From positions 1 to 20,504 of IMG/VR virus record IMGVR_UViG_3300033996_001944: 20,504 nt of DNA; one strand, given 5' to 3'. Positions 3,344 to 18,333 of this stretch are shown here, piece by piece. A model generated the notes under the pieces. That model ran no database searches. It worked only from the letters and a program-made list of their open reading frames with translations, and was not told where the DNA came from. The number at the start of each line of letters is the position of its first letter. Position 1 is the stretch's first letter. Source of the DNA: a virus. The position numbers and the translations under genes are program-made.

Positions 3344-4831
3344 TCACGCGGCGTAAGGGTTGCTGAGCGCCTTGGGAGGCGGTCCGGTCTCATCTTTTTT
3401 GGCTTGTACCGCATCGAGCAACCTCTTGTCCATCATGAGGCGAAGCGCCTGCGTGGTGCTGTCCACGTAGTCGTCGTGCTTGATGCTGTTAGGACCGGTG
3501 TAGCTACACAACTGGTGCAGCAGCGGGTCGATCCAGTTGCGCGGCCGGCCGGGGTGCTTGCTGCTCTCGGGCAGCCAGATCATCTTGCGTGCGAAGATCG
3601 GGCTGACGATGTGCAGGCGCGTGAGCTTGTCGGCGCGGCCGGGGTTGTAGGCGTATGCCTCCAGCCCCTCGCGCTCCAGCATCTGGCGCAGTGAGATGCC
3701 GCTGCCCTTGTCTTCAATCAGCAGGATGTCGGGCTTGCGGCCGGAGGTCAGCGGCTTGCTGCTGCCGAACATGGGCTTGATCAGCGCCGTGTCGCCGTCG
3801 TCACCGTAGGAAATGGTCATTTCCCTCTTCACACGCCGGATAAGATCGGGCATGCCGAGGTGCGCGTCCCAGCAGTCCAACAACATGACGTTGTTGCGCT
3901 TCTCGTGGTAGAACAGACCCCAGACGGTGCAGGCTGTCGGGTCCGGGTCGCCGCTGCGCTTGTCCACCGTCGCCTCGGTGAAGGCGGTGTCGAGCGACAG
4001 GATGACCAGCTCGAACTGGGGCAGCGGCTTGTCGTGCGGCCACAGGCGGAACTGGCTGCGCTTGACAATTCCACCCTCCTCAGGATCGACCAATTCTCCC
4101 AACGCCTCTTGACGAAAAATCACTGTTCCTTCCATCGCCATGATCTGGTCACGGAAGGTCGGCGCGAGGTTGGCCATGTTAGACATGCTGGTGGCGCGCG
4201 TGATGGTCACGTCTTTCCCGCTGCGGGCCACTAGCTGGCGGATGAGCTGCTTGGGCTTTGGCGTTGTGGTGGCCACCATGCGCGGGTTCTTGCCGAGGCG
4301 CAGGGCGAACATGATCATCTGCCACGCGTCTTCGTCATAGGTCCACGCCGCCAGCTCGTCGGCCCACACGCGGTGCCACTGGCCGCCGCGAAAGCGCTCA
4401 GGCTCGGATGCGGGGATGCCCTTAATCAGCGAGCCATTGACCAGCACGATCTCAGACAGCGAGCGGTTGTGGTCCTTGATCAACTGGTGCGGTATGCAGT
4501 TCAGCAAGCCGCTCTCGCCCTCGAAGCAGGTGTCGCGGATGTCGCCCAGCGTCGGCGCGGTGACCAGCGTGCGTGACCCCGGATCGCGCCAGCTTTCCCA
4601 CCAAGCCCACTCCGCCGCGCATTTGGTCTTGCCAGCGCCACGGCCGGCAAGCAGCAGCCATGTACGCCAGTTCCCCTCCGGCTCGATCTGGTGCGCGTGC
4701 GCCTGCGCCAGCCACGCCATATGTTTGTCGTAGGCCAATCGTTCGACGGCGGGCAACTGCGCCCGGCGCTGGCGGGCAGCGGCGAACGTCGCTTCGATCT
4801 CGTGGCTCTCAGCCAGCAAGGCAGGCCCCAT
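3344..4831 (-). CDS. terminase large subunit (packaging ATPase and nuclease)
   Basis: Motor protein that binds the portal, pumps DNA into the prohead and cuts the concatemer. The 495-residue product has both expected domains. ATPase: Walker A LAGRGAGKT near 61-69, Walker B HRVWADE near 153-159, and the coupling motif TTTP near 189. RNase H-fold nuclease: LSLDTAF with D near 281, LLIEDKGSG with E/D near 373-374, and DDYVDST with D near 453-457. The start is ATG at 4831, sharing one base with the small-subunit stop (TGATG); a GTG at 4834 would add one residue. The stop overlaps or nearly abuts the portal start. Length and motif order are normal for the Terminase_6/GpA-type family. Confidence 0.95.
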   Translation of the reverse strand: MGPALLAESHEIEATFAAARQRRAQLPAVERLAYDKHMAWLAQAHAHQIEPEGNWRTWLLLAGRGAGKTKCAAEWAWWESWRDPGSRTLVTAPTLGDIRDTCFEGESGLLNCIPHQLIKDHNRSLSEIVLVNGSLIKGIPASEPERFRGGQWHRVWADELAAWTYDEDAWQMIMFALRLGKNPRMVATTTPKPKQLIRQLVARSGKDVTITRATSMSNMANLAPTFRDQIMAMEGTVIFRQEALGELVDPEEGGIVKRSQFRLWPHDKPLPQFELVILSLDTAFTEATVDKRSGDPDPTACTVWGLFYHEKRNNVMLLDCWDAHLGMPDLIRRVKREMTISYGDDGDTALIKPMFGSSKPLTSGRKPDILLIEDKGSGISLRQMLEREGLEAYAYNPGRADKLTRLHIVSPIFARKMIWLPESSKHPGRPRNWIDPLLHQLCSYTGPNSIKHDDYVDSTTQALRLMMDKRLLDAVQAKKDETGPPPKALSNPYAA

Positions 4832-5244
4832 CACTCATCGGGCTGTTTTGCTCGTGCTGCCCGCTTCGCGATCTCCATCGCCTGATCGAGGGGGTCAATG
4901 CTGCCCTCGATCCGCATGACCAATGGGTTCTCGTCATCGCCCGCCGACGCCTTCTCGCGCCAGCGTCCGCGCGTCTTCAGGTAGAAGATCATGGATGTCA
5001 CATCGCCCGACATGGCTTTCGCGTACAGGTTGCTGGCGATGTTTGCCACGCCGCGAGCGGACGCCTCGTCGAGTTCGTCCCGATAGTATTTGGCGAGGGT
5101 GTCGATGCAGATGCCAAGCTCTGCGGCGATCACTTCCTGTGTCGTGCCGACAGCGGCCCACGTCCGCACCTTGGCGCGAAGCTCGTCCGTCGCCTCGTAT
5201 GGCGGCCGACCCATTTTTTTACTACCGACAATGTCATCGGCCAT
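4831..5244 (-). CDS. terminase small subunit (putative)
   Basis: A 137-residue protein immediately upstream of, and coupled to, the large terminase. Residues about 12-60 hold a homeodomain-like helix-turn-helix: GRPPYEATDEL, then a recognition-helix region around VIAAELGICIDTLAKYY. This resembles small terminases that recognise the packaging start site. The middle (ASNLYAKAMSGDVTSMIFYLKTRGRW) is a motif I associate with phage small terminases of this type. I chose ATG at 5244 because GGAG lies 7 bases upstream; the ATG at 5250 has GGAG only one base away. Position and motif agree, but sequence conservation in this family is low. Confidence 0.82.
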   Translation of the reverse strand: MADDIVGSKKMGRPPYEATDELRAKVRTWAAVGTTQEVIAAELGICIDTLAKYYRDELDEASARGVANIASNLYAKAMSGDVTSMIFYLKTRGRWREKASAGDDENPLVMRIEGSIDPLDQAMEIAKRAARAKQPDE

Positions 5245-5312
5245 CTGCATGCTCCGCTTCGTGGCAGGACTACCAGCCCACAGCAGATAACACCCAGCCA
5301 GCCGAACGACAA

Positions 5313-5343: not shown

Positions 5344-5550
5344 TTAGCCCTCCGTGGTTTTATAGACCGTTTCAACCCACGTCGAACCGTCCCAGCAACC
5401 GCTTTCCTTGCCGTTCCACGAAAAAGCCGCAATGCGTGCTTCGCGAGCGGTATCAAACTTAGCGCAATCACCTTTGACAACGCCGTCAAATGCCAAAGCG
5501 TAAAGCCCGTTTTCAAAACGCGTTGTGCTAACTTCGATAATCTTGGCCAT
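5344..5550 (-). CDS. first gene of the packaging operon, 68 aa, unknown function
   Basis: The start is taken as ATG at 5550, 8 bases after GGAG (CGAGGAGACGACAG). An upstream in-frame ATG at 5610 lies inside the promoter element and is unlikely. The product (MAKIIEVSTTRFENGLYALA...) is a small, probably beta-rich domain with conserved-looking aromatic residues (FSWNGKESGCWDGSTWVETVY). It is the promoter-proximal gene of the minus-strand operon that continues into terminase and portal. The GC hairpin after it may lower downstream expression relative to this gene. No family recognised. Confidence 0.7.
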   Translation of the reverse strand: MAKIIEVSTTRFENGLYALAFDGVVKGDCAKFDTAREARIAAFSWNGKESGCWDGSTWVETVYKTTEG

Positions 5551-5580
5551 CTGTCGTCTCCTCGTGTGGGGCGCTGCCCC

Positions 5581-5635
5581 GTTGCTGATGATCCCTTCTC
5601 TCACATGCAACGCACCGTTGCAAGCACTTTTTTAC
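5581..5635 (-). promoter_or_regulatory. shared promoter/operator element, copy E (packaging operon)
   Basis: Read on the minus strand: GTAAAAAAGTGCT (5635-5623), then TTGCAAC-N5-GTTGCA, an inverted repeat with 6-bp arms (5622-5617 and 5611-5606 on the plus strand), then GAGAGAAGGGATC and ATCAGCAAC (5589-5581). TTGCAA acts as a possible -35 box and ATCAGCAAC falls where transcription should start. The -10 position (GAGAAG) is poor for sigma70, so an activator or phage factor may be needed. It drives the 68-aa gene, terminase and portal. It is a near-mirror image of copy D across the 5551-5980 region. Confidence 0.6.
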
Positions 5636-5898
5636 GAGGCGCTGCAGCATCTGCAGCACGACGCATCACGCTGCATCTTCAGCTTCCGGGGCTGGTCATC
5701 ACACCATGGATTTCTGCAGCGCAGCACAGCATCTGCTCGGTGCAGCATTTGCAGCAGTGGGGGGCACCCCCTACGGGGGTGTACCCCCTTGGTGCTGCAG
5801 AAATGCTGCATTACCCGACCTGCACCATTTGCAGCATGATGCATCTTGCTGCACCGTGCTGCTAATGCTGCATGCTGCAGCACGTGTAAAAAAGTGCT
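5623..5898. repeat. 13-bp perfect inverted repeat bracketing the control region
   Basis: AGCACTTTTTTAC at 5623-5635 recurs as its exact reverse complement, GTAAAAAAGTGCT, at 5886-5898. On each side the A6 run lies just upstream of the outward-facing promoter, where a sigma70 UP element would be. Similar A/T runs precede TTGCAA in the other three copies (near 10265-10285, 13041-13050 and 19131-19140). The repeat marks the boundaries of the heptamer-rich core. Confidence 0.8.
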
Positions 5899-5907
5899 CA
5901 TGCTGCA
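5643..5907. repeat. cluster of TGCAGCA/TGCTGCA heptamers (putative origin, pac or operator array)
   Basis: Twelve exact copies of one heptamer lie in 265 bases. TGCAGCA starts at 5643, 5652, 5741, 5750, 5830 and 5876; its complement TGCTGCA starts at 5793, 5804, 5847, 5866, 5873 and 5901. Five are part of CTGCAG palindromes (5642, 5651, 5714 with a degenerate context, 5795, 5875). Arms 5741-5756 and 5793-5810 are imperfect reverse complements that bracket a G/C hairpin. The DNA codes for nothing convincing: readings across it are low-complexity cysteine/histidine-rich. Iteron-like arrays usually bind an initiator or regulator, so an origin, the terminase pac site or an operator array are all possible. 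The array is seen; the function is inferred. Confidence 0.7.
5759..5788. other. alternating G5/C5 tracts with mutually exclusive hairpins
   Basis: The order is G6 (5759-5764), CACCCCC (5765-5771), TAC, GGGGGTG (5775-5781), TA, C5 (5784-5788). CACCCCC pairs with GGGGGTG as a perfect 7-bp hairpin with a 3-base loop. Alternatively the central G5 pairs with the last C5 across TGTA. The hairpin sits at the centre of the inverted heptamer arms, so this locus could extrude a cruciform or act as a structural switch. Confidence 0.6.
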
Positions 5908-5960
5908 AATTAGGCTATTGCAACGCCACGTTGGTTATGAGAGAAGAGGTCATCAGCAAC
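5886..5960 (+). promoter_or_regulatory. shared promoter/operator element, copy D (early operon)
   Basis: GTAAAAAAGTGCT (5886-5898), then TTGCAAC (5918-5924), a 5-base spacer, GTTGGT (5930-5935), then ATGAGAGAAGAGGTC and ATCAGCAAC (5952-5960). The second repeat arm is degenerate, keeping only GTTG. Compared with copy E there are about 20 extra bases between the A-tract and TTGCAA, including one heptamer. The stretch GAGAGAAG(A/G)G...TCATCAGCAACG is almost identical in D and E and differs from the other copies, so D and E form a subclass. It feeds the 5981-8010 operon. Confidence 0.6.
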
Positions 5961-5980
5961 GACCAACCGGAGACACCGAC

Positions 5981-6220
5981 ATGCACACATGGCTCAAGGA
6001 AGACATCGCCAAGCAAGAGTGGCGCGACGGCAAGCCGGCCGAGACCGCCGGCCCGCCGCAGGCGCTCTGCCCGACGACGCGCTCGATCAGCAGCGCCGCG
6101 TGGGCCCTGCTCCACCCCACGACCGACTGGCTGCAGTGGGGGCCGCGCGAGGCCGCCCGCCGGCAGGCCATCGCCGCCTGCCGCAGCATCAGCCGCATCG
6201 CCGCGCAGGTGGCGGCATGA
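5981..6220 (+). CDS. first early-operon gene, 79 aa, unknown function
   Basis: ATG at 5981 follows GGAG (CCGGAGACACCGAC) 21 bases after the predicted transcript start of promoter D. The product begins MHTWLKEDIAKQEWRD and has a tryptophan-containing middle (WALLHPTTDWLQWGPREAARRQAIAA) and a basic, alanine-rich helical end. No domain recognised. Its TGA overlaps the next ATG. As the promoter-proximal gene of the early block it is a candidate host-takeover or anti-defence protein, but only by position. Confidence 0.65.
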   Translation: MHTWLKEDIAKQEWRDGKPAETAGPPQALCPTTRSISSAAWALLHPTTDWLQWGPREAARRQAIAACRSISRIAAQVAA

Positions 6221-8010: not shown

Positions 8011-8224
8011 CCGGGCAGTCCTTTTCGCACACGCACACCCACGACCAGTTATGCGCCTCGACGGCCTTCACCGTCTCGGCGGTATCGGCCTTGCTGTCAT
8101 AGCCGATGGGCTTGGCTATGCGGCAGTAGTCACTGACCACCAGCGGCGCGGTCGAACCGCTTACGCAGGCGCTCGTCGCGCACAGGATCGGGATTAGCCA
8201 CAGCCGCTTCAGCTTGTTCAACAC
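7991..8224 (-). CDS. o-spanin (Rz1-like outer-membrane lipoprotein)
   Basis: A 77-residue product starting at GTG 8224, out of frame inside the end of the i-spanin gene (95 bases shared), the nested Rz/Rz1 arrangement. The N terminus KLKRLWLIPILCATSAC is a lipoprotein signal with the lipidated cysteine probably at 20 (TSAC is a weak but acceptable lipobox). The mature part has a DYCRIAKPI segment and ends with clustered cysteines (C64, C66, C70). It would sit in the outer membrane and join the i-spanin across the periplasm to fuse membranes at lysis. The unusual feature is the cysteine-rich end rather than a proline-rich one. Confidence 0.8.
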   Translation of the reverse strand: MLNKLKRLWLIPILCATSACVSGSTAPLVVSDYCRIAKPIGYDSKADTAETVKAVEAHNWSWVCVCEKDCPVTPARG

Positions 8225-8348
8225 GGGCCTCTACCTCCTCAATGGCGTCCAGCGCGGCCTCCTTGCGCCCCTGCTCGATGAGCTGCTTCTGCTTCCACCA
8301 CGTTAGTATGGTGGAGATCACGCTCAGCAGGGACGCAAAGAGCTTCAC
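8130..8348 (-). CDS. i-spanin (Rz-like inner-membrane protein)
   Basis: A 72-residue product starting at GTG 8348 with AAGGA 8 bases upstream, inside the holin's 3' end. One N-terminal membrane segment (LFASLLSVISTILTWW) is followed by a long charged helix (KQKQLIEQGRKEAALDAIEEVEARVEQAEAA) and the segment DPVRDERLRKRFDRAA. Single-pass topology, coiled coil and nesting with a lipoprotein gene define it as the inner-membrane half of the spanin complex. Shorter than lambda Rz (about 150 aa). Confidence 0.8.
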   Translation of the reverse strand: MKLFASLLSVISTILTWWKQKQLIEQGRKEAALDAIEEVEARVEQAEAAVANPDPVRDERLRKRFDRAAGGQ

Positions 8349-8352
8349 GCTG

Positions 8353-8520
8353 TCAGTCCTTGTGCTCAGCCATCACGACGGCGGCCAGACCGGCAGCGGC
8401 CATGACCACAGCGGCAATAGCCTGATACAGCGGCTCAGCGATGCCGACAGCGGCAGCCAGACCGGCGAAGCCGGCGTAGGTGCTCGGCTCACGCAAACGC
8501 TTCAAAACGAAATCAACCAT
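8353..8520 (-). CDS. holin
   Basis: A 55-residue protein from ATG 8520, preceded by GGAGGAC (GAGGAGGACTGACT). It begins MVDFVLKRLREPSTYAG and holds two small-residue hydrophobic stretches (about 14-26 and 33-50, rich in A, G, V), ending in a charged MAEHKD tail. Size, two membrane segments and its position between endolysin and spanins fit a holin that opens the inner membrane at the programmed time. A real gene despite its length: ribosome site, tight spacing and cassette context all agree. Confidence 0.78.
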   Translation of the reverse strand: MVDFVLKRLREPSTYAGFAGLAAAVGIAEPLYQAIAAVVMAAAGLAAVVMAEHKD

Positions 8521-8542
8521 AGTCAGTCCTCCTCAGTGAAAA

Positions 8543-9043
8543 TCAGCCCTCGCCCGATGTCTCCGGCGCAGCGGCGGCGGCCCACGGTGCCTGCAGGGCC
8601 CACGCCACGCCCTTCGGCCAGCGCAGGGCGATAAGGCGCTTGCGGTCGAACCGGCGCACATTGACAGCGTCGCCTTGATTGCCGCCCAATATGTTCAGCG
8701 AGGCGTCTCGGTTCACGCTGTCGATGAAGCCGATGTGCCCACCGCCATCACGGCTGAATACGGCGATAGCGCCCAGCGGCGGCCGCGTGGCGACCATCGA
8801 CAACCCCTCGCCCCACGCCGCCCACGCCTTGGCGCGGATGGCGATGGGCGGCGGCTTCAGGCCGGCCTGCGTGACGCAGTGCGCCGCGAACAGCCCGCAC
8901 CACGGCACGCTGTCGGCACCGTAGGCGATGCCCAGCACGCGCGCACCGAGGCGGTTGCCCCAGCTCATGATCACCGGGTTATTGCCCGCGCCGGGCACCT
9001 CACGGGTGCCGATCAGGCTGTGCGCTTCAGTCATCCACTTCAT
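8543..9043 (-). CDS. endolysin (NlpC/P60/CHAP-like, TIGR02594-type peptidase)
   Basis: The start is ATG 9043 because GGAGG is 6 bases upstream; a longer reading from 9112 lies mostly inside the upstream gene. The 166-residue protein has the papain-like cell-wall peptidase pattern: catalytic Cys49 in VPWCGLFAAHCV, His103 in GGHIGFI preceded by PLGAIAVFSRDG, and a polar third residue around N122 in GGNQGDAVNV. It should cleave peptide bonds in peptidoglycan once the holin opens the membrane. No signal peptide, so holin-dependent release is expected. The alanine-rich C-terminal tail (APWAAAAAPETSGEG) is probably disordered. Confidence 0.87.
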   Translation of the reverse strand: MKWMTEAHSLIGTREVPGAGNNPVIMSWGNRLGARVLGIAYGADSVPWCGLFAAHCVTQAGLKPPPIAIRAKAWAAWGEGLSMVATRPPLGAIAVFSRDGGGHIGFIDSVNRDASLNILGGNQGDAVNVRRFDRKRLIALRWPKGVAWALQAPWAAAAAPETSGEG

Positions 9044-9209
9044 CGCCAGCCTCCTTGCTCCGTCGCAGGGCGTCATCATACTCCTTTTCGCGTCGGGCGA
9101 CAATTGCGGCAAACTGGGAGTAGACGTTCTCGACGGCGCGATCCAACGCTATGTCCCGCGCCTCTATCGCGGAACGCCAGTTATCGAGGGCCTTCTGCAC
9201 TGCATTCAC
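9027..9209 (-). CDS. lysis-cassette small protein, 60 aa, helical
   Basis: GTG start at 9209 overlaps the phosphoesterase stop (GTGA) and AGGAG lies 9 bases upstream. It encodes one long charged helix (VQKALDNWRSAIEARDIALDRAVENVYSQFAAIVARREKEYDDALRRS) with no membrane segment. Its end overlaps the endolysin start by 17 bases, so the two are likely coupled. Function unknown. Confidence 0.7.
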   Translation of the reverse strand: MNAVQKALDNWRSAIEARDIALDRAVENVYSQFAAIVARREKEYDDALRRSKEAGDEVDD

Positions 9210-10225
9210 GGCGTAGTCTCCTGCTCGGCTAGATATTCAGCGTGGTCGTCCACAACCACCTGCCCGCGCCACATCGCGCGACCCTCAATCACCTCGCAAA
9301 TCTCTGGCGGCAGCAGCCGCCCGTCCTTGAAGGTGAGCACGGCGAAGCCGGCGCAGGCGGGCGTGTAGCCGTTCTCGGCATACTCGAACTGGGGGCCAGT
9401 CGGATCGGCCAGACAGCCGGTCTGCACGCCCCAACGGCGGCCGCGATAGTCACCCCACGGCTTAACCTCAAGGACGTGCGTGTGGCCGGTCACCATGCTG
9501 ACACCGGATTTTAGCGTGTTGTTGTAGGCGGCGTGAACGCCGTTCGCCTGCCGATGCTTGACCATGACCGGGTGTTTGCTGGCGCGGTTGAGCCAGCACG
9601 ACCACGTCAAGTCCCATTCGGGGAATTGCTCCGCGAGGCGCAGGCCGGGCACCCCCTCGTACATCGGCACTTGCGTGGCGAGGCGGCGCTCGAAGTTGGT
9701 CTCGTGGTTGCCGACCGTGTAGATCGACCGCACGCCCGTGCGCGCCGGTTTGGCCGCCATGCGCCAGCGGTGCATAGCGTCACTGACACAGTCCAGCTCC
9801 TCCTTGACTGTCGGCCGATGCTGCCAGCCGAACGGGTCGTGGCGGTTGGTGCTCGCGCCGTCCAGCCAGTCGCCGTTGGCGATCAGCATACGCACGGCTT
9901 TGCCGAGGTCGGCGGTCACTAGCAGCAGGGCCTTGAGGGCCGTGGTGTCGGGGCCGGGCCAGATGTGCGCGTCGGAGCCGACGACGACGACGCCATCGCG
10001 CATCTCGCAGTTGATTACCTTTTTGTACGTTGACCGGCTGATGGGGGACGTGGACGCCTTGACCGTTGGCAGATCGATGCCCTTGGCGATCAGTGTGTTG
10101 CGCCGAGAATAGATGTTGCGCTCGGAGGTGCCGAGCTCTCGGGCGACGGCGGCCGGGGAGAAGTTGCAACGCTCCCACGCAGATATCAAAACATCGTCGG
10201 GGATTGTGTCTTTGCGCGCGGCCAT
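9206..10225 (-). CDS. calcineurin-like metallophosphoesterase with N-terminal HTH
   Basis: A 339-residue protein. Numbering from ATG 10225 (chosen because AAGGG lies 7 bases upstream; an ATG at 10231 adds two residues): an HTH-like segment at about 18-50 (FSPAAVARELGTSERNIYSRR), then all the metal-binding motifs of the calcineurin-like family in order: SDAH at 84-87, NGDWLDG at 117-123, GNHE at 172-175 and GHTH at 247-250. It should hydrolyse phosphoester bonds, perhaps in nucleic acids or nucleotides, with two metal ions. It is the first gene of the minus-strand lysis operon; related enzymes occur in many phages, with substrate rarely known. Confidence 0.88.
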   Translation of the reverse strand: MAARKDTIPDDVLISAWERCNFSPAAVARELGTSERNIYSRRNTLIAKGIDLPTVKASTSPISRSTYKKVINCEMRDGVVVVGSDAHIWPGPDTTALKALLLVTADLGKAVRMLIANGDWLDGASTNRHDPFGWQHRPTVKEELDCVSDAMHRWRMAAKPARTGVRSIYTVGNHETNFERRLATQVPMYEGVPGLRLAEQFPEWDLTWSCWLNRASKHPVMVKHRQANGVHAAYNNTLKSGVSMVTGHTHVLEVKPWGDYRGRRWGVQTGCLADPTGPQFEYAENGYTPACAGFAVLTFKDGRLLPPEICEVIEGRAMWRGQVVVDDHAEYLAEQETTP

Positions 10226-10264
10226 AAACATCCCTTTGGAAAAGGCTCGCTCGCGCCCTTAGCA

Positions 10265-10608: not shown

Positions 10609-10778
10609 TCGCCGAGGCACGCGAGGCATTCGCCCAGCGCGACCGGCTGCAGGCCGAGTTGGACGCCGTCAACGAGCGGCTGGTCAAGCTCAAGGCCCAG
10701 TACATGCGGGAGACGCACATCTGGGGTATCCGAGATGAGCGCTTCCGTCACGACATCAACAAACTGGAAGACGCATGA
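10605..10778 (+). CDS. small helical protein, 57 aa, unknown function
   Basis: ATGA overlaps at both ends (with the 85-aa gene and the repressor-like gene) and AAGGGAGAGCGCA upstream support a real gene. It is one charged helix (FAQRDRLQAELDAVNERLVKLKAQ) plus a short aromatic end (HIWGIRDERFRHDINKLEDA). It may pair with the coiled protein before it; this is inference from similar composition. Confidence 0.65.
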   Translation: MIAEAREAFAQRDRLQAELDAVNERLVKLKAQYMRETHIWGIRDERFRHDINKLEDA

Positions 10779-11014
10779 CAGACCGTGTCGCCGCCATCAA
10801 CCTCGCCATTGCCAAGGGTGGCGGCATTGTCCGCTTCGCCAAGAGCATGGGCGTGTCGCATCAGGCCATCTACGCATGGAAGCGCAGAGGCTGGGTGCCA
10901 GTGGAGAAGGCCGTCGTGATCGAGGCAGTCTACGGCATCCCGCGCGATGAGCTCATGAGCCCCGACCTCGTCCGGGCGCTTGCCGCACCGAGCGCCAGCG
11001 CCGACCTGCTGTAA
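10775..11014 (+). CDS. YdaS/Cro-like HTH transcription regulator
   Basis: A 79-residue protein matching the YdaS_antitoxin/Cro-like pattern: an N-terminal helix (AAINLAIAKGGGIVRFAKSMG), a classic helix-turn-helix (FAKSMGVSHQAIYAWKRRGWVP, about 21-42) and a short VEKAVVIEAVYGIPRDELMSPDLV segment typical of YdaS/Cro proteins. It should bind operator DNA as a dimer. The TGCAAY-N5-RTTGCA dyads found at five promoters, one of them just upstream at 10292-10308, are natural candidate operators: half-site centres are 11 bases apart, one helical turn. No toxin gene is visible beside it, so a regulatory role is more likely than a toxin-antitoxin role. Confidence 0.82.
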   Translation: MTDRVAAINLAIAKGGGIVRFAKSMGVSHQAIYAWKRRGWVPVEKAVVIEAVYGIPRDELMSPDLVRALAAPSASADLL

Positions 11015-11031
11015 GACCTGTGGAGGACGAC

Positions 11032-13056
11032 ATGGCGAGCGTCAGGGCAATTGCGCCCAAAATCCGCGCCCTTGAGGTGCCGGCAGAGCTGCGGCTCATC
11101 CCCGGCTGGCTTATCTGGCGCTTCGAGCAGTACCCCGGCGAGGCCAAAGCGCGCAAAGTCCCATACTGGACCGACGGCACCATCCGCCACGGCCAACAGG
11201 GCTCGCCGACCGACCGCGCACGCCTAACCGCCTTCGCCGCCGCGCGCGACGCGGCTGCGCGCATGGGCTATGACGGCGTGGGCTTCGCGCCAATGCCCGA
11301 CTTTGGGTATACCTTCCTCGACTTCGACAACTGTGTCGGGCCGAGCGGCGAGATTGCCCCCGAGATCGAGCGCATCGTTGCCCGGACGTATGCCGAGTTC
11401 AGCCCATCGGGTAAAGGCATCCGCGCCGCGCTCAAAGGCAATCTGGGTAACCACAAGAGCCCCTCGACGCCGGAGCAGTTCGGTTTTGAGACGTTCAGCT
11501 CCAACGGCTTTGTCACGTTCACGGGCAACATCCTGCCCGCCTGTGAGCTGATCGGCCTTGAGAACACGGTGGCGACCGTCGATCAGCATGTCATCGACCT
11601 TTGCGAGCGCCGCTTTGGCAGATCGCTGCTCAACAACGTCGTTGACCCTGAAGACTTTATGGCCGGCCGTGAGCCGCGACTGGGCCTGACGCCCGAGCGC
11701 ATGGCCGAGCTGGTCAACAGCCTCGATCCGAACATGAGCCGGCAAGACTGGATCAAGGTCGGCATGGCCCTGCACCACGAGTGCGACGGCGACGACACCG
11801 GCTTCGAGCTGTGGGACGAATGGTCGCAGGACGGGTACACCTACGTCAGCACGGAGGCCATGCGCGTCCAGTGGGAGAGTTTTGACAGGCGCAAGGGATC
11901 GAACCGCAGGCAGGTCACCATGGCCAGCGTGATCAAGATGGCGAAGGAGGCCAACCGCCCAGCCGAGCCACCCAGCCGCGAGGAGGTGCTCGCCAAGGCC
12001 GAGGCCATCATGGCCGAGCTGCCCGCGAGGAGCCTTGGTCGCTTTGGTCCGGTGCCGATCTATGACCTGACCCAGCGCGAGCCGATGGGCTGGCTGATCA
12101 AGGGCGTGCTGCCGAAGGCGCGGCTCGGCGTCCTGTTCGGCGCGTCAGGCAGCGGCAAGACCTTCGTCGCCCTCGACCTCGCCTTCTCAGTCGCGCGCGG
12201 CATTGCGTGGCGCACACGGCGCACGATGCGGGCGCGGGTGGTGATCATCGCCGCAGAGGGCGGCTCCGGTCTGGGCAAGCGCGGGCAGGCCTACGCCCAG
12301 CACTACGGGTTCGACCTGCGGACCGTGCCCGACCTGCACGTCATCACGGCCGCGCCAAACTTTCTGGACGACGCGGACATCTCCGAGGTGATCGCCGAGA
12401 TCAAGAACCTCGGCCCGGTTGACCTGATCATCATCGACACGCTGGCGCAGGTGACGCCCGGCGCGAACGAGAACACGTCAGAGGACATGGGCCGCGCATT
12501 GGGCAACATCAACTTGCTGCACGACGCCACCGGGGCGATGAACCTCGCCGTCCACCACGCGGGCAAGGACCTGAGCAAGGGCTCGCGCGGCTGGTCCGGC
12601 ATCAAGGCCGCCGCCGACGTGCAGATCGAGGTCCTGCGCCACGAGGACGGCAGGCGCGAGATCGTCATCGAGAAGATGAAGGACGGCGAGGACGGCGTCC
12701 GCTGGGGCTTCAAGTTGGAGACGATCCTGCTCGGCCTCGACGACGACGGTGACGACATCACGAGCTGCGTCGCGGTTGAGGATGACGTGCGCCCGGCGGC
12801 TGTTGAGGATAAGAAAAACGTGAAGCGTCGCGGCCGCCTTGAGACCCACCTGCTGGAGGTGGCGACCCTGTTCCCGGCGGATGCAGTTATTCGCGCGGAG
12901 GACCTGATCCGCAAGGCTTGCGATACTTTACCACCACCAGAGCCGGGCAAGCGGGACATCCGTCGCCAGTCAGTTGTCCGGGCAATTCAGAACCTTAGCA
13001 GGGAGAAGGACGGCCCACTGCGGATGGAAAACGGGATCGTAATTTTTTACGAATAG
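11032..13056 (+). CDS. primase-helicase (PrimPol-like N terminus, RecA-type helicase C terminus)
   Basis: A 674-residue replication protein. ATG 11032 is chosen because GGAGG lies 5 bases upstream (a GTG at 11020 adds four residues). N-terminal part (about 20-190): an archaeo-eukaryotic primase-like region with WLIWRFE, the acidic pair in FLDFDN (about 95-100) and FSPSGKGIR (about 123-131). Middle (about 225-300): a PriCT-2-like domain (LVNSLDPNMSRQDWIKVGMALH). C-terminal part: RepA/DnaB-like AAA ATPase with Walker A GASGSGKT (370-377), Walker B VDLIIIDTL (463-471) and HHAGKDLSKGSRG. Probably primes and unwinds at the phage origin. The usual histidine of the primase S-x-H-like motif reads R here, so priming activity is less certain. 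Confidence 0.85.
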   Translation: MASVRAIAPKIRALEVPAELRLIPGWLIWRFEQYPGEAKARKVPYWTDGTIRHGQQGSPTDRARLTAFAAARDAAARMGYDGVGFAPMPDFGYTFLDFDNCVGPSGEIAPEIERIVARTYAEFSPSGKGIRAALKGNLGNHKSPSTPEQFGFETFSSNGFVTFTGNILPACELIGLENTVATVDQHVIDLCERRFGRSLLNNVVDPEDFMAGREPRLGLTPERMAELVNSLDPNMSRQDWIKVGMALHHECDGDDTGFELWDEWSQDGYTYVSTEAMRVQWESFDRRKGSNRRQVTMASVIKMAKEANRPAEPPSREEVLAKAEAIMAELPARSLGRFGPVPIYDLTQREPMGWLIKGVLPKARLGVLFGASGSGKTFVALDLAFSVARGIAWRTRRTMRARVVIIAAEGGSGLGKRGQAYAQHYGFDLRTVPDLHVITAAPNFLDDADISEVIAEIKNLGPVDLIIIDTLAQVTPGANENTSEDMGRALGNINLLHDATGAMNLAVHHAGKDLSKGSRGWSGIKAAADVQIEVLRHEDGRREIVIEKMKDGEDGVRWGFKLETILLGLDDDGDDITSCVAVEDDVRPAAVEDKKNVKRRGRLETHLLEVATLFPADAVIRAEDLIRKACDTLPPPEPGKRDIRRQSVVRAIQNLSREKDGPLRMENGIVIFYE

Positions 13057-16374: not shown

Positions 16375-18333
16375 ATGAGCACACTGTACCTCGATCTCGA
16401 AACCTTCTGCGAAACCAAGATCACCTACGGCGCGTACCGCTATGCGGAGGACGCCGAGGTGATGCTGGTGGCGTTTGCGTGGGACGGCGAGCCTGTGAGT
16501 GTCTGGGATACGCAGGACATGCCGCACTGGCGTGATGCGCTGCAGATGATGATCGACACCGCCGACGACATCGTGATCCACAACAGCAACTTCGACCGCA
16601 CCGTCCTGCGCGAGCAGGGCGTCCACATCCCTGTGGAGAAGATCATCGATACGATGGTGCTGGCCCTGCAGCACAGCCTGCCGGGGTCTCTGGGCCAGCT
16701 TTGCGACGTGCTGAACGTGCCGCAGGATAAAGCTAAGGACAAGGCGGGCAAGAAGCTGATACACTTGCTGACGAAGCCGAGGCCCAGCAACGTCAAGCTA
16801 CGGAGAGCTACCCGTGACACACACCCCGAGGAGTGGGCCGCCTTCGTCGAGTACGCCCGGCTCGATGTGGACGCAATGCGAAGCGTATTTGGACGACTTC
16901 CAGCATGGAACGATAGTCGTCATGAGCGGCACCTGTGGTTCTGTGATCAAAGAATTGTTGACCGTGGTGTCGCCGTTGATCTCGAGTTCGCAAGAGCAGC
17001 TCTACGAGCTTTCGATAGAGCTGGACGAACTTTGGCCACTCGTGCAGCCCATCTAACGGGCGGCAGCGTCACGTCCGCCACGCAGCGCCAGCGTCTACTC
17101 GACCACCTCAAGGACGCCCACGGCTTCGAGACCGACGACTTGACGCGCGCCACGCTCGGCAACCTGCTCGGCGGTGACCTCAATCCGCAGGTGCGCGAGC
17201 TGCTGGAGATACGCCAGCAGGCGGCCGCGACGAGCCCAGCCAAGTACAGTGTGCTGCTCAACGCCACGAACCGAGACGGCCGCCTGCGCGGCCTGATCCA
17301 GTTCTGCGGCGCGGCGCGCACCGGGCGTGACGCCGGCCGCCTGTTCCAGCCGCAGAACCTGCCGCGCAGCCCCGACTGGTTCGACGACGACGTGCAGGCG
17401 ACCACGGTGGCAGCTATGAAGGCGGACTGCGAGCACCTGATCTGGGACAACATCAGCGAGCGCTGCGCGTTCGCCGTGCGCGGCGCGCTGGTCGCCCCCG
17501 AGGGCAAGAAGCTGGTCATCGCCGATCTGTCCAACATCGAGGGGCGCGTGCTGGCGTGGCTGGCCGGCGAGGACTGGAAGGTCGCCGCCTTCAAGGCCTA
17601 CGACCGAGGCGACGGGCACGACCTGTACAAGGTCACCGCCGGCCGCATTCTCGGCAAGGACCCCGGCGACATCACCAAGGCCGAACGGCAGCTTCAGGGC
17701 AAGGTGCCGGAGCTGGCCGGAGGCTATCAGGGCGGCGTCGGGGCGTACCGCAAGATGGGCGGCGCGGTCTTCGACGCGATGACCGACGAGGCCATCCAAG
17801 AGATCGTGACGGCGTGGCGAAGGGCCCACCCGCGCACGCGCAACCTGTGGTACGACATGGAGGCGGCCGCGCGGTCAGCCATCAACAATCTGGGCGAGAG
17901 CTTCGGCGACCTGATCACGTTCGACGTGAAGCCGGACGCGCAGGGCATCGCGTGGCTGCGGATGCGGCTGCCGAGCGGTCGCTACCTGTGCTACCCGCGC
18001 CCGGAGGTGTCGGACAGCGGGAGCCTGTTCCACGAGGGCATGAACCAATTCACGCGCAAGTGGGAGCGCCTCGACACCTACGGCGGCAAGCTGGTCGAGA
18101 ATGCCGTGCAGGCCATCGCCCGCGACGTGTTCATGATCGGCATGCTGCGCGCCGAGGAGGCCGGCTACAGCGTCTGCATCCGCGTGCACGACGAGCTGGT
18201 CTGCGAGACGCCGGACGAGCCGGCGTACAGCAGCGAGGGGCTGGCCGCGCTCATGTCCACCAATCCGAGTTGGTCGGTCGGCCTGCCGCTTGCCGCCGCC
18301 GGCTTCGAGGCGTACCGTTACCGCAAGGACTGA
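16375..18333 (+). CDS. DNA polymerase, family A, with 3'-5' exonuclease
   Basis: The 652-residue phage replicase. Exonuclease (1-175): Exo I D7/E9 in LDLET, Exo II N72/D74 in HNSNFDRTVL, Exo III Y160/D164 in YARLDVDAM. Polymerase: motif A D384 in VIADLSNIEGR, motif B R438...K443 in RQLQGKVPELAGGYQGG, motif C HDE at 605-607 in IRVHDELVCE. All catalytic residues are present, so it should be active and proofreading. ATG 16375 with AGAGGA upstream, directly after the hairpin RNA. Codons about 167-230 (16870-17060) use AGA, CGA, GGA, CTA and GTA far more than the rest of the gene, at the border between exonuclease and polymerase domains. Confidence 0.96.
   Translation: MSTLYLDLETFCETKITYGAYRYAEDAEVMLVAFAWDGEPVSVWDTQDMPHWRDALQMMIDTADDIVIHNSNFDRTVLREQGVHIPVEKIIDTMVLALQHSLPGSLGQLCDVLNVPQDKAKDKAGKKLIHLLTKPRPSNVKLRRATRDTHPEEWAAFVEYARLDVDAMRSVFGRLPAWNDSRHERHLWFCDQRIVDRGVAVDLEFARAALRAFDRAGRTLATRAAHLTGGSVTSATQRQRLLDHLKDAHGFETDDLTRATLGNLLGGDLNPQVRELLEIRQQAAATSPAKYSVLLNATNRDGRLRGLIQFCGAARTGRDAGRLFQPQNLPRSPDWFDDDVQATTVAAMKADCEHLIWDNISERCAFAVRGALVAPEGKKLVIADLSNIEGRVLAWLAGEDWKVAAFKAYDRGDGHDLYKVTAGRILGKDPGDITKAERQLQGKVPELAGGYQGGVGAYRKMGGAVFDAMTDEAIQEIVTAWRRAHPRTRNLWYDMEAAARSAINNLGESFGDLITFDVKPDAQGIAWLRMRLPSGRYLCYPRPEVSDSGSLFHEGMNQFTRKWERLDTYGGKLVENAVQAIARDVFMIGMLRAEEAGYSVCIRVHDELVCETPDEPAYSSEGLAALMSTNPSWSVGLPLAAAGFEAYRYRKD

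Follow-up and report, generated by a model that had tools for sequence, protein, structure and literature searches.

Helicase-primases that use a C-terminal winged helix to bind origin repeats or stem-loops have been established or proposed for P4 alpha, pRN1, and BIP-1 (PMC4234260). At P4 ori, the winged helix of alpha binds the origin repeats, and unwinding and priming follow. RSF1010 oriV, which is served by RepC, RepA, and RepB', combines iterons with short priming stem-loops and a RepA-type helicase. In pRN1 and at the putative BIP-1/BPP-1 origin, a primase-helicase with a C-terminal winged helix is accompanied by a stem-loop behind the replication gene, while the helicases belong to SF3 and the origins are said to lack iterons (PMC4234260).

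We analyzed a stretch of viral DNA of 20,504 nucleotides (IMG/VR record IMGVR_UViG_3300033996_001944, positions 1 to 20,504; hereafter the window) that carries a dense array of short repeats in an intergenic gap. On sequence comparison, we consider it likely that this array is the replication origin of the phage, that the helicase-primase recognizes its TGCANC iterons through a C-terminal winged helix, and that the array is used in initiation together with a hairpin at its center. As in P4, the repeat reader would be the winged helix of a helicase-primase, here a predicted domain. However, P4 alpha has a Toprim primase, whereas the window protein (11020–13056, + strand; 678 aa), our proposed initiator, joins PriCT_2 to a RepA/RecA-like AAA_25 helicase (Pfam); the window array also holds a bulged hairpin and, in the window clade, lies between the early and terminase operons. 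RSF1010 divides among three separate proteins what a single fused helicase-primase, apparently reading the iterons itself, would do here, and the window has only one hairpin. Unlike pRN1 and BIP-1, the window has abundant iterons and another helicase type.

The Caulobacter phage RW cluster (proposed Riverwalkvirus) contains the nearest cultured relatives, which share the gene order of the window and are 54% identical to it in TerL, 58% in DNA polymerase, 50% in the helicase-primase, and 42% in the Cro-like protein. RW differs in that the heptamer array was not found in the matching gap, in having DVRKQ for DIRRQ, and in having been deposited with a 2940-bp terminal repeat. By analogy with RW, array-bearing relatives would probably infect Caulobacter or Brevundimonas. 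Phages of the BPP-1 group share the polymerase family of the window phage, whose own replication module includes a family A DNA polymerase (16375–18333, + strand); a comparable TGCANC array was not found in BPP-1, JessA, PCA1, or MW202545 when these were used as comparators. A DNA-level search of cultured phages gave no match. The phage group is probably virulent, because a primase scan of bacterial genomes for prophage relatives found none.

The array occupies positions 5643–5907, where twelve exact TGCAGCA/TGCTGCA heptamers lie within 265 bp, six in each orientation (+ strand starts at 5643, 5652, 5741, 5750, 5830, and 5876; − strand starts at 5793, 5804, 5847, 5866, 5873, and 5901). The initial annotation had described these twelve heptamers as far denser than chance and as non-coding, and our counts agree. 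Just 8 further copies occur in the remaining 20.2 kb, against the 12 in 265 bp, and 5.8 would be expected per whole shuffled window. In dinucleotide shuffles of the window (n = 200), no 265-bp interval held more than 3 copies of this heptamer, and shuffles of the intergenic region 5555–5980 alone (n = 2000) gave a mean of 0.7 and a maximum of 5; when any heptamer whatever was allowed, at least 12 copies per 265 bp were reached in 2 of 200 shuffles. In the 57-kb relative G002, the array holds 12 of 29 heptamers. That the array does not encode protein is seen from indels against relatives that are not multiples of three and from adjoining ORFs that are exchanged while the array is kept. Counting the degenerate TGCANC form raises the number to about 22–24 sites (about 22 from 5641 onward, 24 between 5606 and 5924), 15 of which are TGCAGC; the initial annotation had overlooked the degenerate copies as well as the hairpin and the large inverted repeats that flank the array. 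The array region has 55% GC compared with about 64%, and its T-tracts at 5623 and 5886 may be promoter parts.

The gap divides a leftward operon comprising a small ORF, TerS (4831–5250, − strand), TerL (3344–4834, − strand), and the portal gene from a rightward early operon encoding small ORFs, the Cro-like protein, the helicase-primase, proteins similar to DUF2800 and DUF2815 (names taken over from the RW annotation), DNA polymerase, and a helicase. At the two gap edges lie promoter-like modules that mirror each other (44 nt, 82%) and form the arms of an outer inverted repeat: the left arm (5580–5623, − strand) is on the terminase side and contains the dyad TGCAACG-N3-CGTTGCA at 5606–5622, and the right arm (5918–5961, + strand) is on the early side, has its dyad at 5919, and reads TTGCAAC...TATGAGAG. 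The leader TCATCAGCAACG downstream of the right-arm module is conserved in relatives, and the mirror modules have in common the TGCAACG-N3-CGTTGCA dyads and the TCATCAGCAACG leader region. A T-tract of 13 nt occurs twice in perfect inversion, as AGCACTTTTTTAC at 5623–5635, a possible unwinding element or promoter part, and as its mirror copy GTAAAAAAGTGCT at 5886–5898. The first genes of the left operon (5344–5550, − strand) and of the early operon (5981–6220, + strand) vary among close relatives and are gene-exchange hot spots, differing even between phages 99% identical in TerS. Elsewhere, the rightward early operon is interrupted at 8130–10231 by a leftward gene group made up of a lysis-like cassette and a metallophosphoesterase gene (PHROG 221); the latter was found in only a few close relatives.

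The element is real and conserved. We scanned some 200 related viral loci, with IMG/VR relatives found via the small terminase and the helicase-primase, and close relatives retain the array despite a different first gene on each side. At the same location, its spelling varies by phage as TGCAGC, TGCACC, TGCAAC, TGTCAC, or TGTCCG. An array was not clearly found in the expected gap of the L153 contig, L127, L126, and L246, which carry the same kind of helicase-primase tail; L153 also has 20 copies of CTACGGC/CGTAGCC in a short stretch from 5695 onward, upstream of its primase gene. Its distribution marks the array as characteristic of this phage group and not of the small terminase.

This distribution bears on the packaging function that the initial annotation had considered because the array is about 400 bases from the small terminase gene; measured from the start codon of that gene (5250), the distance is 393 bp. 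According to that reading, the array and hairpin mark a terminase cut site or the site of terminal-repeat duplication, and adjacency to TerS in the window clade speaks for it. However, TerS families are swapped while the iteron is unchanged, since L100, L101, L109, L111, L117, L123, and L135 have a TGCAGCA array with an unrelated TerS, and arrays of the same kind also occur beside a terminase that is not similar to that of the window. We reject TerS as the binder of the array because of this swapping under a constant motif. Genome ends give a mixed picture. RW (L086/L087; 2905–2945 and 62362) has an exact direct terminal repeat of 2940 bp whose right end coincides with the base of a similar bulged hairpin in the corresponding divergent gap, and this genome end is the sole observation suggesting that the hairpin takes part in packaging. 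For RLK, KcrB, and GB2A, the three sisters of RW, the genome ends were trimmed to fit relatives and are not independent (PMC11053796), the deposited end of the related JessA lies inside TerS, and none of the contigs longer than 50 kb with a mapped array position ends at the array. We regard a packaging element as quite improbable. RW also has a perfect 18-nt palindrome about 25 nt before its left end, which is a possible terminal-repeat signal.

The array is linked to the helicase-primase. In the alignment of this protein, the tail GKRD-X-RRQ follows the fifth base of the iteron, where X is residue 647 (Ile647 in the window, codon 12958–12960, + strand), and this residue has the highest mutual information with iteron base 5 among all primase columns (0.73 of 0.90 bits). 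Ile accompanies TGCAGC, Thr is found with both TGCAAC and TGCACC, Leu in the L254 clade with TGCACC, and Ser in L273 with TGCAAC. When close relatives were collapsed, the G-arrays comprised 9 Ile and 1 Thr, whereas the non-G arrays comprised 0 Ile and 14 non-Ile (Fisher P 8e-6, phylogeny not modelled). On a tree built from primase residues 1–600, the array class needs 6 changes, and all 5 inferred changes at residue 647 coincide with array-class changes, with one phage mismatching; L150 is the clear exception, having Thr with a TGCAGC array. The switch is also seen between the sister phages L250, with TGCAGC and Ile, and L242, with TGCAAC and Thr, whose DNA is about 89% identical in the primase region. 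The rule holds in contigs that were retrieved once it was known (Thr/TGCAAC in L270, L271, L275, and L338; Leu/TGCACC in the L254 clade); all of these have Thr, Ser, or Leu, and support for the Ile–G half comes from the first set. In the TGTCAC/TGTCCG clade (L146, L147), a DQRLF motif occupies the position of residue 647. The C-terminal domain (about residues 604–678; 12829–13053, + strand) is predicted to fold as a winged helix (H-b-H-H-b-b) in which residue 647 sits immediately ahead of the recognition helix; confidence in this model is moderate (pLDDT about 80 in the domain), PDB matches are weak, and a PDB profile search with the domain returned nothing significant. The repeat sequence and the predicted DNA-binding domain of the putative initiator change together, at base 5 and residue 647. 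Because one letter of the repeat changes with one amino acid, the iterons look like docking sites for the helicase-primase.

The first suspect as reader of base 5 was the Cro-like HTH protein (10775–11014, + strand), which has the fold of Xfaso 1 Cro and is a candidate regulator of the divergent promoters. It would bind the heptamers and switch the divergent terminase and early promoters. The array does lie between two mirror-copy promoter-like modules, a Cro-fold protein is encoded ahead of the primase in all phages checked, and the TTGCAAC dyads found at each promoter are similar to the iterons; in the TGTC-array clade, the Cro recognition helix is also altered (TVQAV), although this is a single event. 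Co-variation does not support the protein as base-5 reader, as no Cro column follows that base (the best gives 3/17 mismatches against 1/17 for the primase column), and L137 and L140 have near-identical Cro proteins, yet TGCAAC and TGCACC arrays, respectively. Moreover, sites across arrays are mostly direct repeats, head to tail at 7, 9, or 10–12 bp, and not the fixed-spacing dyad operators of a dimer, and arrays in the L207 clade and others stand behind the primase gene without divergent genes. We consider such an operator array unlikely, and both it and the packaging site are weaker explanations than an origin. Nevertheless, a second, regulatory role for the array is possible because it is located between promoters, and the Cro-like protein could operate a switch in that role, given that dyads resembling TGCAACG-N3-CGTTGCA occur in both promoter modules.

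The layout in distant relatives also points to replication. These phages have two-way arrays of other repeats (CGAGTA, CGTAAC, CGGGAA, GGCACA, GCTACA, GTTGGGAA, AGATAT, and others), most of them accompanied by a small hairpin, either immediately after the primase gene or a short distance beyond it. Among the fetched loci, 50 distinct arrays exceeded the threshold, counted as one best array per locus with at least 2 copies per orientation, so that phages without an array are not represented; 19 are downstream of the primase gene, 31 upstream, and none inside it, and 15 of the 50 lie within 250 bp of the primase stop. In the window clade, 5.1 kb separate the array from the primase gene. In the L207 clade, the array is behind the primase among co-directional genes, and the nearby terminase has no detectable similarity to that of the window; a replication gene and its putative origin would be arranged in this way. 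Further two-way arrays, each with a motif of its own, follow a primase or helicase gene in distant phages at L156 12340–12575, L157 10978–11200, L221 5898–6158, L277 11996–12154, L285 9136–9383, and L341 11041–11162, and these are probable origins.

At the center of the window array is a bulged hairpin (5760–5788; GGGGG-CACCCCC-TAC-GGGGGTG-ta-CCCCC) whose base is extended and closed by the iterons at 5750 and 5793. The DNA fold of 5750–5800 has a free energy of −20.5 kcal/mol (z −4.9). A search that allowed bulges found 13 arrays with an outer stem of 3–6 bp, a bulge of 1–2 nt, an inner stem of 6–9 bp, and a loop of 3–4 nt; some of these arrays are related, which leaves perhaps 8 to 10 independent sequences. 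The architecture is kept while the sequences differ, and the bulge faces the early genes in 12 of the 13 arrays and the opposite side in L113. These results come from the bulged model, as a finder lacking it misplaced several hairpins; the bulged model missed the hairpins in L103, L140, L143, L139, L254, L147, and RW, some of which were read by eye. The hairpin more likely functions in DNA than in RNA because it lies upstream of both presumed transcripts.

Phages also exchange array blocks, and the copy number varies. L139 and L140 are 98% identical in their terminase genes and 95% in their replication genes, whereas their array blocks (L139 3185–3938, L140 3159–3589) are unrelated, so that the array acts as an exchangeable cassette; L137 and L140, about 90% identical, likewise have unrelated array blocks. 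Such mobility could be taken to mean that the repeats have no binding function and were spread by slippage or as selfish palindromes. We give this explanation very little credence, as the position, double orientation, hairpin architecture, and one-residue co-variation persist across clades whose primases are about 40–60% identical.

Most likely, the array is an iteron origin read by the helicase-primase and a variant of a known origin type. Of the origin, pac site, and regulator array named in the initial annotation, the origin gains support from the co-variation with the helicase-primase and from the placement of repeat arrays next to primase genes in distant relatives. With P4 alpha/ori, RSF1010, and the comparison of pRN1 with BIP-1 as working models (PMC4234260), we propose that the winged helix of the helicase-primase would bind the iterons of the two half-arrays around the hairpin, and that this binding would load or assemble the RepA-type helicase and open the DNA. 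Opening would expose the bulged hairpin as a single strand, which may position the primase in the manner of the RSF1010 ssi hairpins, and the primase domain would then lay primers for extension by the family A DNA polymerase of the phage. The sequences show the array, the architecture of the hairpin, the link to the primase, and the co-variation with residue 647, whereas binding, opening, priming, origin firing, and direction are what we infer. Several findings count against an origin. Cumulative GC skew, which had been suggested as a check, does not change direction at the array, either in the window or in its relatives, and RW, the nearest cultured relative, lacks a clear array; the L150 exception, the 5.1 kb to the primase gene in the window clade, and the weak PDB matches of the winged helix weigh in the same direction.

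It is conceivable, though we would not expect it, that the origin is a cassette that phages exchange and whose specificity switches rapidly, and that in some members, such as RW, the hairpin may also be the genome terminus. Base 5 and residue 647 have switched jointly several times, as expected if phages alter the address of their origin and so escape origin-hijacking satellites or defenses. If the RW hairpin were indeed a terminus, the start of replication and the formation of the terminal repeat would be joined in one element.

To our knowledge, no array-bearing member of this phage group has a mapped origin. The array therefore offers a concrete candidate origin for a large, mostly uncultured phage group near BPP-1 and Caulobacter phage RW. 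Our analysis also names a probable initiator, its putative DNA-reading domain, and one candidate specificity residue, linked by a simple base-to-residue rule. For phages with helicase-primases, a two-way repeat array with a hairpin, located behind the primase gene or in the divergent gap between early and late genes, may provide a route to finding origins.
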